From an uncultured Erysipelotrichaceae bacterium (GTDB lineage: Bacteria; Bacillota_I; Bacilli_A; Erysipelotrichales; Erysipelotrichaceae): DNA of 51,261 nt. The stretch's first letter is position 1. Every line of letters starts with the position of its first letter. Below, in pieces: positions 8,528 to 18,242 of this stretch. The notes below the pieces were generated by a model. The model had not been told where the DNA came from. It was given only the letters and a program-made list of their open reading frames with translations, and did no database searches. The DNA lies in the NCBI GenBank assembly GCA_947167125.1, contig CAMVGT010000011.1:1-51261 (forward strand), given 5' to 3'. Made by a program: the position numbers and the translations under genes.

Positions 8528-9445
8528 TTACTGATTAATGTAGTGGCATGCCGCAAGCGCAGCGACTGCACCGTCTGCGGCTGCTGTTGTCAGCTGGCGG
8601 ATCTGCTTGGATCTGCAGTCTCCCGCCACAAAGATGCCGGGTGTTTTTGTCAGACACTGCTCATCGGAATCGAAATATCCATATGCATTCAGATCGCAGA
8701 AGTCTTTGAAGCCTTCATTTTCAGGAATCAGTCCGATTGCCACAAACAGTCCGTCGCAGTCGATATCCTGCACGGTTCCGTCTGCTTTATTCTCAATTGT
8801 GACGCCTTTGAATGTTTCACCGTCCGCACGCAGTGCGGTGATCTTTACATTGGTGAAGTATCTGACATGATCCTTGGCAAACAGCACTTCCTGCAGTTTT
8901 GCTTCACCGGTGAAATCCGGCAGATCCTGCAGCATGATCACTTCTCTGCACTTCTGAGAAAGCAGAATCGCTTCCTGAAGAGCGGAGTTGCCGCCGCCTG
9001 CCACGCAGACTGTCTTTCCCGAATAGAAATCACCGTCGCACACTGCGCAATAGGAGATGCCTTCTCCGACGAGATCTTCTTCCCCTTCCAGTCCCAGCAT
9101 GCGGTGCTTCACACCGGTTGCCAGAATGACTGTGCGTCCTGCATGCACTGTTTCCTCTTCCGTTTTCACATATTTCAGATCGCCTTCGCAATCAATGGAA
9201 GTGACGGTTTCGATTTCAAAATCAGCACCCTGGGCAATGATCTGGTCAAACAGTTTATCCGCAAATTCATTGCCGCTCATCGAAAGAGTTCCGGGATAGT
9301 TTTCGACTCTGGGGGAGTGTGTGATCTGTCCGCCGAAGCCTTCTTTTTCGATGATCAGAACCGTCTTGCCGTTTCTTAATGCATACAGCGCAGCTGTCAT
9401 GCCGGCAGGACCGCCTCCGACCACGATCACATCATAGATTGTCAT
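8528..9445 (-). CDS. trxB: Thioredoxin-disulfide reductase
   Basis: A 305-residue flavoprotein that uses NADPH to reduce thioredoxin-type disulfides. The N-terminal FAD-binding GGGPAG, the redox CAVC at Cys133/Cys136, the NADPH-binding GGGNSA and the C-terminal FAD motif GIFVAGDC are all present, and the length is standard. It starts 3 bp after the nrdD stop codon, so it is the third gene of the nrd operon. The C-terminal redoxin domain of NrdD is its obvious local partner. No free-standing thioredoxin gene is seen in the window. Confidence 0.96.
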   Translation of the reverse strand: MTIYDVIVVGGGPAGMTAALYALRNGKTVLIIEKEGFGGQITHSPRVENYPGTLSMSGNEFADKLFDQIIAQGADFEIETVTSIDCEGDLKYVKTEEETVHAGRTVILATGVKHRMLGLEGEEDLVGEGISYCAVCDGDFYSGKTVCVAGGGNSALQEAILLSQKCREVIMLQDLPDFTGEAKLQEVLFAKDHVRYFTNVKITALRADGETFKGVTIENKADGTVQDIDCDGLFVAIGLIPENEGFKDFCDLNAYGYFDSDEQCLTKTPGIFVAGDCRSKQIRQLTTAAADGAVAALAACHYINQ

Positions 9446-9448
9446 TCA

Positions 9449-11857
9449 TCAGCTCCTGGACAGCCATCCCTTGATGTCGGAAACACCGCGGTATTTTTCG
9501 AAGCCTGTTCCGTTTTCAATGACAAGTGTCGGTGCCTGCTTGATGCCGTATTTAGCAACAAGATCACGTTCCTCATTCGCATTGAGAACTGTATATTCAA
9601 CGCCTGCCTTATCCAGCAGTGCGGCTGCAGCCTTGCAGTTGGGGCATGTCGGTGTCTTGAAGAGGATAATGCCGCTTTCGCTGCGTTCAACTTCTTCCTT
9701 TACCGGAGCCTGATCCGCGACAGTCTGTTCAACTGTGACAGGCTGTCTTGACTCTTCTTCGCGGAAGTCATCGAGGGATCTTGATGCCAGTCCTTCAACA
9801 CGGTATGTTCTTCTGTCTTTGAATTCCTGTGACTTGCCGGCATTCCAGTTCTTGACCGGACGGTAGTAGCCGGTAATGCGGGAGTAGACTTCTGTATCTG
9901 CTCCGCACTTCGGACATGTCCATACTTCACCGGCAATATATCCGTCATATTTGCAGACGGAATAGGTCGGGCTCATGGTGTAGTACGGAAGCTTGTAGTT
10001 TTCCGCAATCTTTCTGACCAGAGTCGCAGCCGACTTCCAGTCGGTGAGTCTTTCACCGAGGAATGCATGGAAGACAGTTCCGGATGTATAGAGAGTCTGC
10101 AGCTGATCCTGTACATCAAGAGCGCTGAAGATGTCATCTGTATAGCCTACAGGCAGATGGGAACTGTTGGTGTAGTACGGTGTGCCTGCCATGTTGGCTG
10201 TGATGATTTCAGGATATTTTTCCTTGTCATGCTTGGCCAGACGGTAGGATGTGCTTTCCGCAGGTGTTGCCTCAAGGTTATAGAGGTCGCCGTATTTTTC
10301 CTGATAGTCGGAAAGACGTTCTCTCATGTGGTTGAGGACTTTTACCGCAAAGTCCTGTGTTTCCTTATGTGTCAGATCCTTCTGCAGCCACTTTGCATTC
10401 AGGCCTGTTTCATTCATACCGACCAGACCGATTGTGGAGAAATGGTTGTTGAATGTGCCGAGGTATCTCTTTGTGTAAGGATAGAGACCTGCATCAAGAA
10501 GCTGTGTGATGACCTGTCTCTTTGTATTGAGGGAACGGGCGGAAATGTCCATAACCTTGTCAAGACGTCTGAAGAAGTCTGCTTCATCCTTTGCAAGATA
10601 GGCGAGTCTCGGCAGGTTGATTGTGACAACGCCTACAGAACCTGTGCTTTCGCCGGATCCGAAGAAGCCGCCGCTCTTCTTTCTCAGTTCGCGGAGATCG
10701 AGTCTTAAACGGCAGCACATACTTCTGACGTCGCTCGGTTCCATATCGCTGTTGATGTAGTTGGAGAAATAAGGTGTTCCGTATTTCGCAGTCATTTCAA
10801 ACAGAAGCTTATTGTTTTCTGTTTCAGACCAGTCAAAGTCCTTTGTGATGGAATATGTCGGAATCGGATACTGGAAGCCTCTGCCGTTGGCATCGCCTTC
10901 GATCATTGTTTCGATGAAGGCTCTGTTGACCATATCCATTTCCTTCTTGCAGTCCTTGTACTGGAAATCCATTTCCTTGCCGCCGACAATCGCATTCAGA
11001 TTTGCGAGGTCATTCGGTACGGTCCAGTCAAGTGTGACATTGGTGAACGGTGCCTGTGTGCCCCATCTGCTCGGTGTGTTGACGCCGTAGATGAAGGACT
11101 GGATGCACTGTTTGACTTCGCTGTAACTGAGGTTGTCCGCTTTGACAAACGGTGCCAGATAAGTATCAAAGCTGGAGAATGCCTGAGCTCCTGCCCATTC
11201 ATTCTGCATAATGCCCAGGAAGTTAACCATCTGGTTGCACAGTGTGCTCAGATGCTTTGCCGGCGCACTTGTGATCTTGCCCGGAATGCCGCCGAGACCT
11301 TCCTGGATCAGCTGCTTCAGGGACCAGCCTGCGCAATAGCCGGTTAACATGCTCAGATCATGAATATGAATATCGCCGGATCTGTGGGCGTTGGCAATCT
11401 CTTCGTCATAAACTTCGGAAAGCCAGTAGTTGGCTGTGATCGCACCGGAGTTGGAAAGAATCAGACCGCCGACAGAATATGTGACCGTACTGTTTTCCTT
11501 GACTCTCCAGTCAAGCGCTCTGAGATAGTTGTCGACCAGCATCTTGTAGTCGAGTGTTGTCGCATTGATATTGCGGATATTCTGTCTCTGCTTGCGGTAA
11601 AGGATATATGCTTTCGCAACATCGGCATAGCCGGTTTCGGAAAGAATCTTTTCCACGCTGTCCTGAATATCTTCCACATCGACCAGGCCGTCGCTGATTT
11701 TCGGTTCAAAATCACTTGTGACACGCAGCGCGATCAGATTGATAATGTCATCTGTATATCTTCTGCTGCATGCGTCGAATGCTTTCTTGATTGCGTTTGC
11801 GATCTTGCTGAGATCGAACGGCGCAATCTTGCCGTCTCTTTTCCTGACACTGTACAT
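9449..11857 (-). CDS. nrdD: Class III (anaerobic) ribonucleoside-triphosphate reductase fused to a C-terminal redoxin
   Basis: An 802-residue enzyme that reduces NTPs to dNTPs without oxygen using a glycyl radical. An ATP-cone regulatory domain covers about residues 1-95, followed by the ten-stranded barrel with GYCAGWS (Cys175) and SMCCRLRLD (Cys381/382). The radical loop RITGYY places the glycyl radical at Gly663. The zinc site upstream shows Cys635, Cys648 and Cys651, but the usual second ligand position reads Asp (CKYDG). Beyond the normal end, a linker (about 695-727) leads to a 75-residue glutaredoxin/NrdH-like domain with CPNC at 738-741. The ribosome binding site AAGGAGGGG lies in the end of nrdG. 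The gene sits between its activase and trxB. Confidence 0.96.
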   Translation of the reverse strand: MYSVRKRDGKIAPFDLSKIANAIKKAFDACSRRYTDDIINLIALRVTSDFEPKISDGLVDVEDIQDSVEKILSETGYADVAKAYILYRKQRQNIRNINATTLDYKMLVDNYLRALDWRVKENSTVTYSVGGLILSNSGAITANYWLSEVYDEEIANAHRSGDIHIHDLSMLTGYCAGWSLKQLIQEGLGGIPGKITSAPAKHLSTLCNQMVNFLGIMQNEWAGAQAFSSFDTYLAPFVKADNLSYSEVKQCIQSFIYGVNTPSRWGTQAPFTNVTLDWTVPNDLANLNAIVGGKEMDFQYKDCKKEMDMVNRAFIETMIEGDANGRGFQYPIPTYSITKDFDWSETENNKLLFEMTAKYGTPYFSNYINSDMEPSDVRSMCCRLRLDLRELRKKSGGFFGSGESTGSVGVVTINLPRLAYLAKDEADFFRRLDKVMDISARSLNTKRQVITQLLDAGLYPYTKRYLGTFNNHFSTIGLVGMNETGLNAKWLQKDLTHKETQDFAVKVLNHMRERLSDYQEKYGDLYNLEATPAESTSYRLAKHDKEKYPEIITANMAGTPYYTNSSHLPVGYTDDIFSALDVQDQLQTLYTSGTVFHAFLGERLTDWKSAATLVRKIAENYKLPYYTMSPTYSVCKYDGYIAGEVWTCPKCGADTEVYSRITGYYRPVKNWNAGKSQEFKDRRTYRVEGLASRSLDDFREEESRQPVTVEQTVADQAPVKEEVERSESGIILFKTPTCPNCKAAAALLDKAGVEYTVLNANEERDLVAKYGIKQAPTLVIENGTGFEKYRGVSDIKGWLSRS

Positions 11858-11859
11858 CT

Positions 11860-13008
11860 CTACCCCTCCTTAACACCTCGTAATGTGACTGAAGGAACCA
11901 GATCAATGATCTGCTGCCGAAGTTCCTCCATCTCACTTGCTGAATACGCACTGAATCCGGGCTGAATTACATTCCCCGAATCCATATACTGCTGCAGATA
12001 ATAAGTTTCGTTAGGTCCGATCCATTCCGCGATCTGCTTTAGATCATCCGCGGTATGAAGCTCCCTGACGACTGTCGTTCTGAATTCATGTTCGATTCCG
12101 CATGATTTCAGGAATTCAGCGGATTCCCGGATCGCATCCAGTCTGAATGTCTCCGGATTCATTCCCAAAGTCACTGCGTATTTTTCCGGACTGTTTTTGA
12201 TGTCCATTGCAACATAGTCAACCAGACCTTTATTCACAATGTCTTTCAGTCTGTCCGGATAGCCGCCGTTGGTGTCCAGTTTGACAAGATACCCCATTGA
12301 GCGGATCTTTTCAACCAGAGGCTGAAGATTTTCCTGAAGAAGAGGTTCGCCGCCGCTGATGCAGACACCGTCCAGTAGCCCTTTTCTCTTTTCCAGGTAT
12401 CTGAGAACATCATCCACATCGAAGTATTCATATCTCTCCGGAATGAATACAAGCTCGCGGTTATGGCAGAACGGACATTTGAAATTGCAGCCGGACAGGA
12501 AAACCGTACATGCGGCTTTTCCCGGATAATCCAGCAATGTCATTTTCTGCAGTCCGCCGATTTTCAGACCGCGCAGATCATTCTCGGCCAGAAGCTTTCC
12601 TCTGGCATTGTCCGTTACTTTTGCAAGAACCTGCTCAAAGGTCTTGAAATCGACATCCTCCGCAAGAATGGAACGCATGCGGTTGCGGAATTCATAGACG
12701 TCAACCATGATGGCACCGGCTTTGTCAGTGGTATACAGCCGCTTGACACGATGGTCTTTTTCATCTGTGCGCGACTGAACATAGCCCTGGTCAATCAGGC
12801 GCTGAACACTCTTGGTTGTGGTCCCTTTATCCACTTCGGAGAGCGAAGTCAGCTCCTGCATTGTGATGCCTTCATTCTCATTGATGCATAAAAGGAAGAT
12901 CAATTGTCCGCTTCCGATGTCATACGGAATCAGAGCACGGTCAAAATACTTCTGCGTGTTGCGGTAAAGCACAGAGAGATTTAAAAGAAAATTACTCTGG
13001 TCAGCCAT
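11860..13008 (-). CDS. nrdG: MarR-family DNA-binding domain fused to anaerobic RNR activating protein NrdG
   Basis: A 382-residue two-domain protein. Residues 1 to about 145 form a MarR-type winged helix: the recognition region is ELTSLSEVDKGTTTKSVQRL and the wing TDEKDHRVKRLYTT. Residues from about 148 to the end are the radical-SAM activase: the 4Fe-4S cluster cysteines are Cys174, Cys178 and Cys181 (CNFKCPFC), and the SAM-binding GGEP is near 219-222. The activase installs the glycyl radical in NrdD. One continuous frame with one good ribosome binding site (AGGAGGA) argues against two genes. It is first in the operon and ends 2 bp before nrdD. Inverted repeats in the promoter suggest that it represses its own operon, which is inference. 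Confidence 0.93.
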   Translation of the reverse strand: MADQSNFLLNLSVLYRNTQKYFDRALIPYDIGSGQLIFLLCINENEGITMQELTSLSEVDKGTTTKSVQRLIDQGYVQSRTDEKDHRVKRLYTTDKAGAIMVDVYEFRNRMRSILAEDVDFKTFEQVLAKVTDNARGKLLAENDLRGLKIGGLQKMTLLDYPGKAACTVFLSGCNFKCPFCHNRELVFIPERYEYFDVDDVLRYLEKRKGLLDGVCISGGEPLLQENLQPLVEKIRSMGYLVKLDTNGGYPDRLKDIVNKGLVDYVAMDIKNSPEKYAVTLGMNPETFRLDAIRESAEFLKSCGIEHEFRTTVVRELHTADDLKQIAEWIGPNETYYLQQYMDSGNVIQPGFSAYSASEMEELRQQIIDLVPSVTLRGVKEG

Positions 13009-13041
13009 GAACTATCCTCCTGGATCAGATGAGAATCAGAT

Positions 13042-13057
13042 GGTTGGACTTCCTACC
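13042..13057. promoter_or_regulatory. Inverted repeat in the nrd leader, candidate MarR site
   Basis: GGTTGGACTTCCTACC: arms GGTNGGA/TCCNACC match at six of seven positions. It sits between the predicted transcription start and the nrdG ribosome binding site. Confidence 0.5.
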
Positions 13058-13071
13058 AATTTCATCAAATT
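13058..13071. promoter_or_regulatory. Palindrome at the nrd transcription start, candidate MarR operator
   Basis: AATTTCATCAAATT has perfect five-base arms AATTT/AAATT around four bases. It lies at the expected transcription start of the nrd operon, directly beside the other inverted repeat. Confidence 0.55.
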
Positions 13072-13073
13072 CT

Positions 13074-13101
13074 ATGATACGCCCCACGAGACCAGTGTCA
13101 A
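13074..13101 (-). promoter_or_regulatory. nrdG-nrdD-trxB promoter
   Basis: On the minus strand -35 TTGACA (13096-13101), 16-bp spacer, -10 TATCAT (13074-13079). This is the only convincing promoter upstream of the three-gene operon. Confidence 0.75.
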
Positions 13102-13194: not shown

Positions 13195-13236
13195 AAGCCA
13201 TGGATCATCAGACTATTATGCCTGATCATCCATGGC
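13195..13236 (-). terminator. Terminator of the treP-treC operon
   Basis: Long stem AGCCATGGATGATCAG/CTGATGATCCATGGCT with a 10-nt loop, followed on the minus strand by TTTTATC. Confidence 0.85.
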
Positions 13237-17765: not shown

Positions 17766-18242
17766 ATGAAAGCAATCACACCGATGACAAATCTGAAAAA
17801 AGATATCATTCTTGACGGGCTTCTGACCAAAAGAAAAGCTCCTCTTTCCGCTGACGGCCTTCAGCAGACGCTTCAGGATCTGACATCCTATATTGCCAGA
17901 AACGGCATCTTCTATGCTGCTGTCTTTCCGAAGAAGGAAGTAAGAGGTATGAGTGAATTCACTGCCGCGGATATTGACAAAGCAGACATCATGCAGGCAG
18001 ATGACAATGAGCTGTATTTCCCGGTATTTTCCGATTATGAAAAACTGCGGAAATTCCGTCCCGAACCGAAAGAAAACGAAGTGTTCTGCATAGTTACAAA
18101 AGAAGACCTTCTTTCCTTCCTGCAGCTCAACGGCAAAATCGCCGCGTGTGTTCTGAATCCGATGGAAGATGATCTGCTCATGCACAGGGTATTGCTGCAG
18201 AATCTGATCACTGCTGGGAAGGATCTTAACAGTTCATATTAA
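17766..18242 (+). CDS. SseB N-terminal-domain-like protein
   Basis: A 158-residue soluble protein. The segment NELYFPVFSDYEKLRKF and the later LNGKIAACVLNPMEDDLLM match the pattern of the SseB N-terminal domain, found in many small Firmicutes proteins of unknown function. No catalytic motif, signal peptide or membrane helix is seen. It follows treR closely and ends at a weak terminator, so it may share the treR transcript. A link to trehalose metabolism is not otherwise supported. The start is supported by AAAGG ten bases upstream. Confidence 0.65.
   Translation: MKAITPMTNLKKDIILDGLLTKRKAPLSADGLQQTLQDLTSYIARNGIFYAAVFPKKEVRGMSEFTAADIDKADIMQADDNELYFPVFSDYEKLRKFRPEPKENEVFCIVTKEDLLSFLQLNGKIAACVLNPMEDDLLMHRVLLQNLITAGKDLNSSY

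Follow-up and report, generated by a model that had tools for sequence, protein, structure and literature searches.

In the window, by which we mean the whole stretch of 51,261 nucleotides analysed here from an uncultured Erysipelotrichaceae bacterium, a single gene joins a MarR-type DNA-binding domain to NrdG, the activase of the anaerobic (class III) ribonucleotide reductase (RNR). This raises the question of whether an RNR activase may also be the repressor of its own operon and, if so, which signal governs its binding to DNA. The sequence-only reading had proposed such a repressor, with either the occupancy of the Fe-S cluster or contact with NrdD as the signal.

The fusion gene, its operon and its distribution

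The fusion gene (11860..13008, minus strand) is a single open frame of 382 codons with both domain profiles (Pfam/NCBIfam) above their cut-offs, which confirms the continuous frame first read there. Its MarR winged-helix domain (residues 1-141, 12586..13008, minus strand) scores 41.1 and 40.2 bits with PF12802 and PF01047 (curated cut-offs 27 and 24.6), and it has the full-length MarR fold with flanking helices and an intact wing motif, D85-x-R87. The radical-SAM activase domain (residues 148-382, 11860..12567, minus strand) reaches 222.6 bits with the NrdG2 model TIGR02495 (equivalog cut-off 131) and carries CX3CX2C as CNFKCPFC at residues 174-181 (12489-12466, minus strand). Profile score, cluster motif and the neighbouring nrdD together identify the protein, by sequence, as an NrdG2 activase. 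A redox cysteine in the MarR domain was considered and rejected, no cysteine of this part being invariant or nearly so in an alignment of 11 sequences.

The fusion gene heads an operon. After a gap of 2 bases comes nrdD (9449..11857, minus strand), coding for an ATP-cone (residues 3-92), the NRDD core and a C-terminal glutaredoxin domain, with the core motifs C175, MCCR (C381/C382) and a glycyl-radical loop with G663. The final gene (8528..9445, minus strand) is thioredoxin-reductase-like, at 298.6 bits with TIGR01292 and thus below the cut-off of 343. The glutaredoxin domain on NrdD and the adjoining thioredoxin-reductase-like gene look like a self-contained reductant chain, and many Clostridia loci are built likewise. 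Between the operon and the next upstream gene lies an inverted repeat (13198-13235; 14-base arms with one mismatch, 10-base loop), which was spotted by eye and is absent from the terminator-scan list, whose loops stop at 8. No more than about 5 kb from the fusion gene, the window also codes for a small uncharacterised protein (17766-18242, 158 codons) that is 48% identical over 148 residues to one at a similar distance from the fusion gene in another genome (L331:7735-8244, 169 codons).

The search among relatives called for by the sequence-only reading found a match spanning both domains in 86 of the 195 genomes taken from the window's family, its own included, and, in a class sample of 395 genomes, in two further families (f2, of the same order, n=6; f21, n=5). 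Beyond f1, f2 and f21, only the NrdG part was matched in the class sample and in a phylum sample (n=392) at the E-value limits used. Many of the genomes are draft assemblies. The named fusion loci (L039-L049) come from Erysipelotrichaceae MAGs, one MAG filed under Acholeplasmatales, and the isolate Dielma fastidiosa (L042). The genome of one fusion gene (G138:C15, L033), 75% complete, gave no NRDD match, and the gene adjoins a 475-codon frame without NrdD motifs. An error of sequencing or assembly that joined two genes, the possibility first raised against the fusion, has practically no chance of being the explanation: the same continuous fusion recurs in 86 of 195 genomes, including the single-contig assemblies G006, G031, G052 and G125, and nothing was found in its favour. 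Stops flagged within some fusion matches are, in the loci translated, the natural stop codon at the gene end. In 69 further loci (L050-L118), mostly titled Clostridia, NrdG2 stands alone. NrdD is matched in 60 of these, mostly directly after NrdG2, many also have glutaredoxin and thioredoxin-reductase matches, the gene order in many is that of the window, and a MarR match occurs in none of the 69. The simplest inference is that an older nrdG2-nrdD operon gained a MarR domain at the N-terminus of NrdG2. Judged by title or abstract start, searches of the open-licence PMC library brought up no account of a MarR-NrdG fusion or of a pseudo-NrdD regulator, and the word MarR occurs 0 times in the main text of the RNRdb paper (PMC2795772).

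A palindrome at class III RNR genes

A putative operator palindrome, TGGTAGGAAGTCCAACCA on the minus strand (13041..13058), is present upstream of the fusion gene, between the -10 box and the ATG. It lies 15 bases downstream of a sigma-70-type promoter, TTGACA-16-TATCAT (13074..13101, minus strand), recognised solely by its match to consensus at 11 of 12 positions. The palindrome is a diverged form of TAGTTG-N6-CAACTA, deviating at 3 of the 12 fixed positions. In a scan with a matrix made from 92 relatives' sites at up to one mismatch, with the window's genome left out, it comes out top among the 51,244 positions of the window (13.7 bits; runner-up 0.8). The same genome has a second, unlinked nrdD (G000:C22, L119) with AAAGGTTGGAAATCCAACCTTT directly before its ATG, and the core found there, GTTGGAAATCCAAC, is the sole perfect copy in the genome of 2.87 Mb. 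At up to two mismatches the core occurs at 15 places versus 7 for the backward pattern. A wider regulon was considered and rejected: among the stretches inspected, on C36 and C40, none was convincing besides the two nrd sites, and a one-mismatch core site on C36 reaches 3 bits by matrix.

In relatives, TAGTTG-N6-CAACTA stands shortly before the start codon. At up to one mismatch it was found in 57 of 85 regions upstream of fusion genes (of 86 genes, that of G084 starts at a contig end, and several of the 85 regions are short). Among the NRDD matches listed, it was likewise found before 35 of 49 second nrdD genes of fusion genomes (the window's own counting as a miss) but before only 1 of 31 nrdD genes of family genomes without the fusion, namely that of G172. 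The difference is significant if kinship is ignored (Fisher p 3e-10) and, kinship again ignored, holds within a shorter type of nrdD, assigned manually on the lengths of frame and match (33 of 41 vs 1 of 10 among the matches listed, p 7e-5). The 49 and 31 regions were hand-picked among the NRDD matches listed, with G051, G058 and many no-fusion genomes, for example, outside them, and an upstream stretch of 42 bases (G187:C26, L228) was excluded from the counts. The backward pattern gave 0, 0 and 0 in the three upstream sets at up to one mismatch, and other spacings gave 0 or 1.

The matrix scan gave a similar picture. At 8 bits or more, sites were found at 68 of 85 fusion genes and, among the NRDD matches listed, at 40 of 49 second nrdD genes and 5 of 31 no-fusion genes, the first two counts being partly self-fulfilling because the matrix was built from those two sets. 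NrdG-only regions gave 1 of 5, and reversed sequence gave 2, 1, 1 and 0 for the fusion, second-nrdD, no-fusion and NrdG-only sets. Among the NRDD matches listed, 38 of the 40 second-nrdD sites positive by matrix are found 400-454 bases upstream of the stretch end, directly before the start codon; the no-fusion matches other than G172 lie outside this range, at 347, 706, 897 and 897 bases. Sites overlap predicted promoters in 65 of 68 cases (control 38.5) and in 38 of 40 (control 17.0), just moderately above control because the promoter scan is loose.

The site in G172 (G172:C13, L346:3999-4016), a 97%-complete MAG of the window's genus, is a perfect one at nrdD with no fusion found, which we ascribe either to loss of the fusion or to an assembly gap. 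Class I nrdA was examined in 24 upstream regions (23 fusion genomes, and G187, whose fusion ends at a contig edge). Sites are perfect in G084 and G181 and have one mismatch in G187 (L309:975-992, L310:292-309, L329:2669-2686), G130 has a weak matrix match and G045 the core alone, and nothing convincing was found in the remaining 19 of the 24. This excludes nrdA as a general target and makes it an occasional one. The same site at the second, unlinked nrdD, and occasionally at nrdA, suggests that the fusion probably also acts in trans. Similar palindromes lie alongside stand-alone MarR genes akin to the fusion's MarR part in two genomes (G052:C1:1624388-1624405 and G054:C2:73358-73375), so the fusion may have inherited the operator together with the domain. 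As for the claim that the activase represses its own operon, the palindrome between -10 box and ATG and its conservation at relatives' promoters indicate that it probably does.

NrdR has been described as the general RNR repressor, that of the majority of bacteria (PMC2795772), that of most bacteria (PMC9110341) or a "universal" one (PMC12051234). In the window's family, NrdR (TIGR00244) was found above cut-off in 0 of 195 genomes, while controls were positive in 9 of 14. Weak matches in 29 genomes reach 31.3 bits at best against a cut-off of 124.65 and fall mostly within RNR-length frames, and the window's genome has no TIGR00244 match of any strength. NrdR was likewise not found above cut-off in the family genomes without the fusion, which implies that the fusion is not required as a replacement for NrdR. 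NRDD was found in 169 of the 195 genomes and the class I small subunit in 66, the window's genome not among the latter. That genome also codes for a separate canonical NrdG (G000:C40, 176.5 bits), so another activase is available for its second NrdD.

Pairs that have lost catalytic residues

The partner NrdDs of 85 fusions, the window's included, comprise 54 of active type (with a window-like catalytic motif, that is, MCCR, or C175 where the contig ends early), 27 pseudo-type proteins without the radical-cysteine motif, and 4 left unjudged. The window's CCR aligns with that of Thermotoga maritima NrdD in structures 4coi and 4u3e, and the mutants C329A and C330A in the SCCR of that enzyme are inactive (PMC4493059). 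The CCR is gone in all 27 pseudo-type NrdDs, and because it is missing we take them to have lost activity, although C175, replaced in 25, is kept in G001 and G091, and the glycine remains in 15 of 27. The glycyl-radical loop is missing in 10 of the 25 whose C-terminal end could be read. Mapped on a tree of the 85 fusion proteins, the pseudo-type label must have changed at least four times, starred branches alone forcing that number, and these changes were taken as losses because regain of the motif is unlikely. On this tree, then, the radical-cysteine motif of the partner NrdD has been lost in at least four lineages. The independent tree pairs number four, too few for significance (sign test, median p 0.125).

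A match to the ATP-cone profile (E up to 0.001) was obtained for each of the 27 pseudo-type NrdDs and for the window's, and one to NRDD for 26 of these 28. Of the 26 columns invariant across the 28 proteins, 22 fall within the ATP-cone (residues 3-92) and the others are R95, Y111, W145 and A157, with short members making the C-terminal part seem less conserved. Residues K6 and R7 of the window NrdD correspond to Lys19 and Arg20 of StNrdD by an offset of 13, which was read from the ends of the match to structure 9d3x, taken here to be StNrdD. Both StNrdD residues are given as possible contacts to the ATP phosphates (PMC12662201). On the fusion side, scored at positions conserved in active-type fusions, the 27 pseudo-type fusions keep 98% in MarR (16 columns) versus 66% in NrdG (49 columns). 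All 27 have the wing D and R. In NrdG, by contrast, L159 and F170 have gone from every one of the 27, while G152 and N183 survive in 1 and D245 in 2. N183 belongs to the CHN stretch that follows the cluster, and D245 to LDTNG; residues like these serve the active site in pyruvate-formate-lyase activase. Most fusions do have CX3CX2C itself (82 of 85, and 24 of the 27 with a pseudo-type partner); it is lost in G013, G037 and G080, where the second nrdD keeps a perfect site.

The palindromes follow the same division. Among the NRDD matches listed, the second nrdD carries the palindrome in 23 of the 23 pseudo-type genomes read (22 perfect, 1 with one mismatch) and, at up to one mismatch, in 8 of 19 genomes whose partner NrdD is of active type, with the window's own counting as a miss. 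At the fusion's own promoter, a site of 6 bits or more is present in 54 of 54 active-type versus 9 of 27 pseudo-type fusions (18 of 27 being without), a threshold set after the scores had been seen; mismatch counts, independent of that threshold, give 34 of 37 versus 9 of 25 at up to two mismatches. The site-less fusions whose surroundings were read (L331-L343) adjoin an unusual NrdD. In G051, where MarR is found solely on a pseudo-type fusion elsewhere, a stand-alone nrdG2-nrdD operon has the site with one mismatch, which is absent in the four other NrdG-only genomes.

Proposed function, rival explanations and known systems

The conserved sites, the failure to find NrdR, and the retention of MarR domain and ATP-cone in pseudo-type pairs indicate repression of class III RNR genes as the most likely role of the fusion, and this role is well supported at the level of sequence. 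By the same evidence, selection appears to maintain the MarR part for binding DNA, with RNR genes as its targets both in cis and in trans. We infer operator binding, repression, and a signal path from NrdD through NrdG to MarR together with its sign. The fusion is thus probably an RNR activase turned repressor of RNR genes that takes its signal from the ATP-cone of the partner NrdD. Under this mechanism, the MarR domain, presumably as a dimer, would bind TAGTTG-N6-CAACTA overlapping or following the promoter of its own nrdG-nrdD-trxR operon and of the second nrdD elsewhere, and would block transcription. The ATP-cone of the partner NrdD would read dATP against ATP, and the NrdG domain, docked on NrdD, would relay the nucleotide state to the MarR domain, so that synthesis of class III RNR would be matched to the dNTP pool. 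What seems a pure sensor-repressor would have arisen from the pair in at least four lineages, with catalytic residues lost from NrdD and from the NrdG domain, ATP-cone and MarR domain retained, and the remaining intact nrdD as target. Whether a dead NrdD with a live ATP-cone, on a dead MarR-bearing activase, is indeed a dNTP sensor that represses the operon of the working NrdD, independent of NrdR and with at least four origins from a moonlighting active pair, is a proposal that we hold to be evenly poised. The ATP-cone might also have been retained for a purpose unrelated to sensing. On a class III NrdD, dATP at the cone changes the enzyme and does not prevent radical formation (PMC11226230).

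Of the two signals first proposed, contact with NrdD is now favoured because the ATP-cone and the MarR domain remain when the enzymes lose catalytic residues, whereas occupancy of the Fe-S cluster is weakened as a general signal because 3 of 85 fusions lack CX3CX2C and keep a perfect site at the second nrdD; in the window's own protein Fe-S sensing may still operate. The rival built on that signal, in which the same repressor and operators would respond to the state of the [4Fe-4S]/SAM site of NrdG and hence to oxygen or SAM, draws on the presence of the cluster motif in nearly all fusions, most of those with a pseudo-type partner included; we consider it unlikely, since G013, G037 and G080 have lost the motif and since further NrdG residues that active pairs conserve have disappeared throughout the pseudo-type group. 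In a second rival, the MarR domain would bind its own small molecule, as is usual for MarR proteins, and the NrdG/NrdD part would have no sensing role; that the conserved positions of the MarR part are the best kept also suits this view. It leaves unexplained why an NrdG that has lost activase residues and an NrdD with an ATP-cone stay fused or adjacent in an 18-row clade and three more lineages, and we regard it as rather improbable.

The palindromes might instead belong to a different, stand-alone MarR regulator, with the MarR part of the fusion as a passenger. Stand-alone MarR relatives do exist, two of them beside a similar palindrome (G052, G054), and G172 has a site with no fusion detected. 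Yet the sites track the fusion among the NRDD matches listed, the nrdD read in G054, which has a stand-alone MarR and no fusion, deviates at 3 positions and so has no site, and a passenger would hardly be expected with wing D and R intact in every pseudo-type fusion; this explanation strikes us as very improbable.

If the fusion is a repressor signalled by NrdD, a large family of gut anaerobes in which NrdR is not found above cut-off appears to have another protein that does NrdR's work. Such a protein links three fields usually kept apart, namely radical-enzyme activation, dNTP sensing by ATP-cones, and transcription, and the recurrent loss of catalytic residues while MarR and ATP-cone persist amounts to a set of natural separation-of-function experiments. 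How bacteria without NrdR match RNR synthesis to dNTP demand thereby becomes testable with two proteins and two short DNA fragments.

The proposed function resembles that of NrdR, which represses RNR operons from promoter palindromes and senses nucleotides with an ATP-cone (PMC9110341); the same job and the same sensor domain are proposed here. NrdR, however, holds a Zn-ribbon and an ATP-cone in one protein (PMC12176259), whereas here the DNA-binding domain is MarR and the ATP-cone sits on the separate NrdD, so that the fusion is NrdR-like in function and falls outside the NrdR family. With NrdG2 (TIGR02495) it shares a score above the curated cut-off, CX3CX2C and the nrdD neighbour, as in Clostridia; the stand-alone NrdG2 loci (L050-L118) differ in being without MarR, while several Erysipelotrichaceae lineages lose activase residues and keep MarR. 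The fusion shares with MarR-family repressors the fold, the wing motif and a palindrome at its own promoter, here a putative operator, but its MarR domain is fused to an enzyme, and the sites found sit at RNR genes. TIGR04472, the MarR regulator of a radical-SAM mobile pair, also links MarR to radical-SAM genes, but the fusion matches it weakly (27.8 bits, cut-off 240) and is not a member, and, to go by its name, that regulator belongs to a mobile pair as a MarR protein of its own, not fused to NrdG. PutA, BirA and NadR are bifunctional enzyme-repressors that combine chemistry and repression of their own pathway in one protein. The fusion differs from them in being the activase of another enzyme, and some of its descendants seem to have been reduced to the regulatory half, alongside a dead client enzyme.
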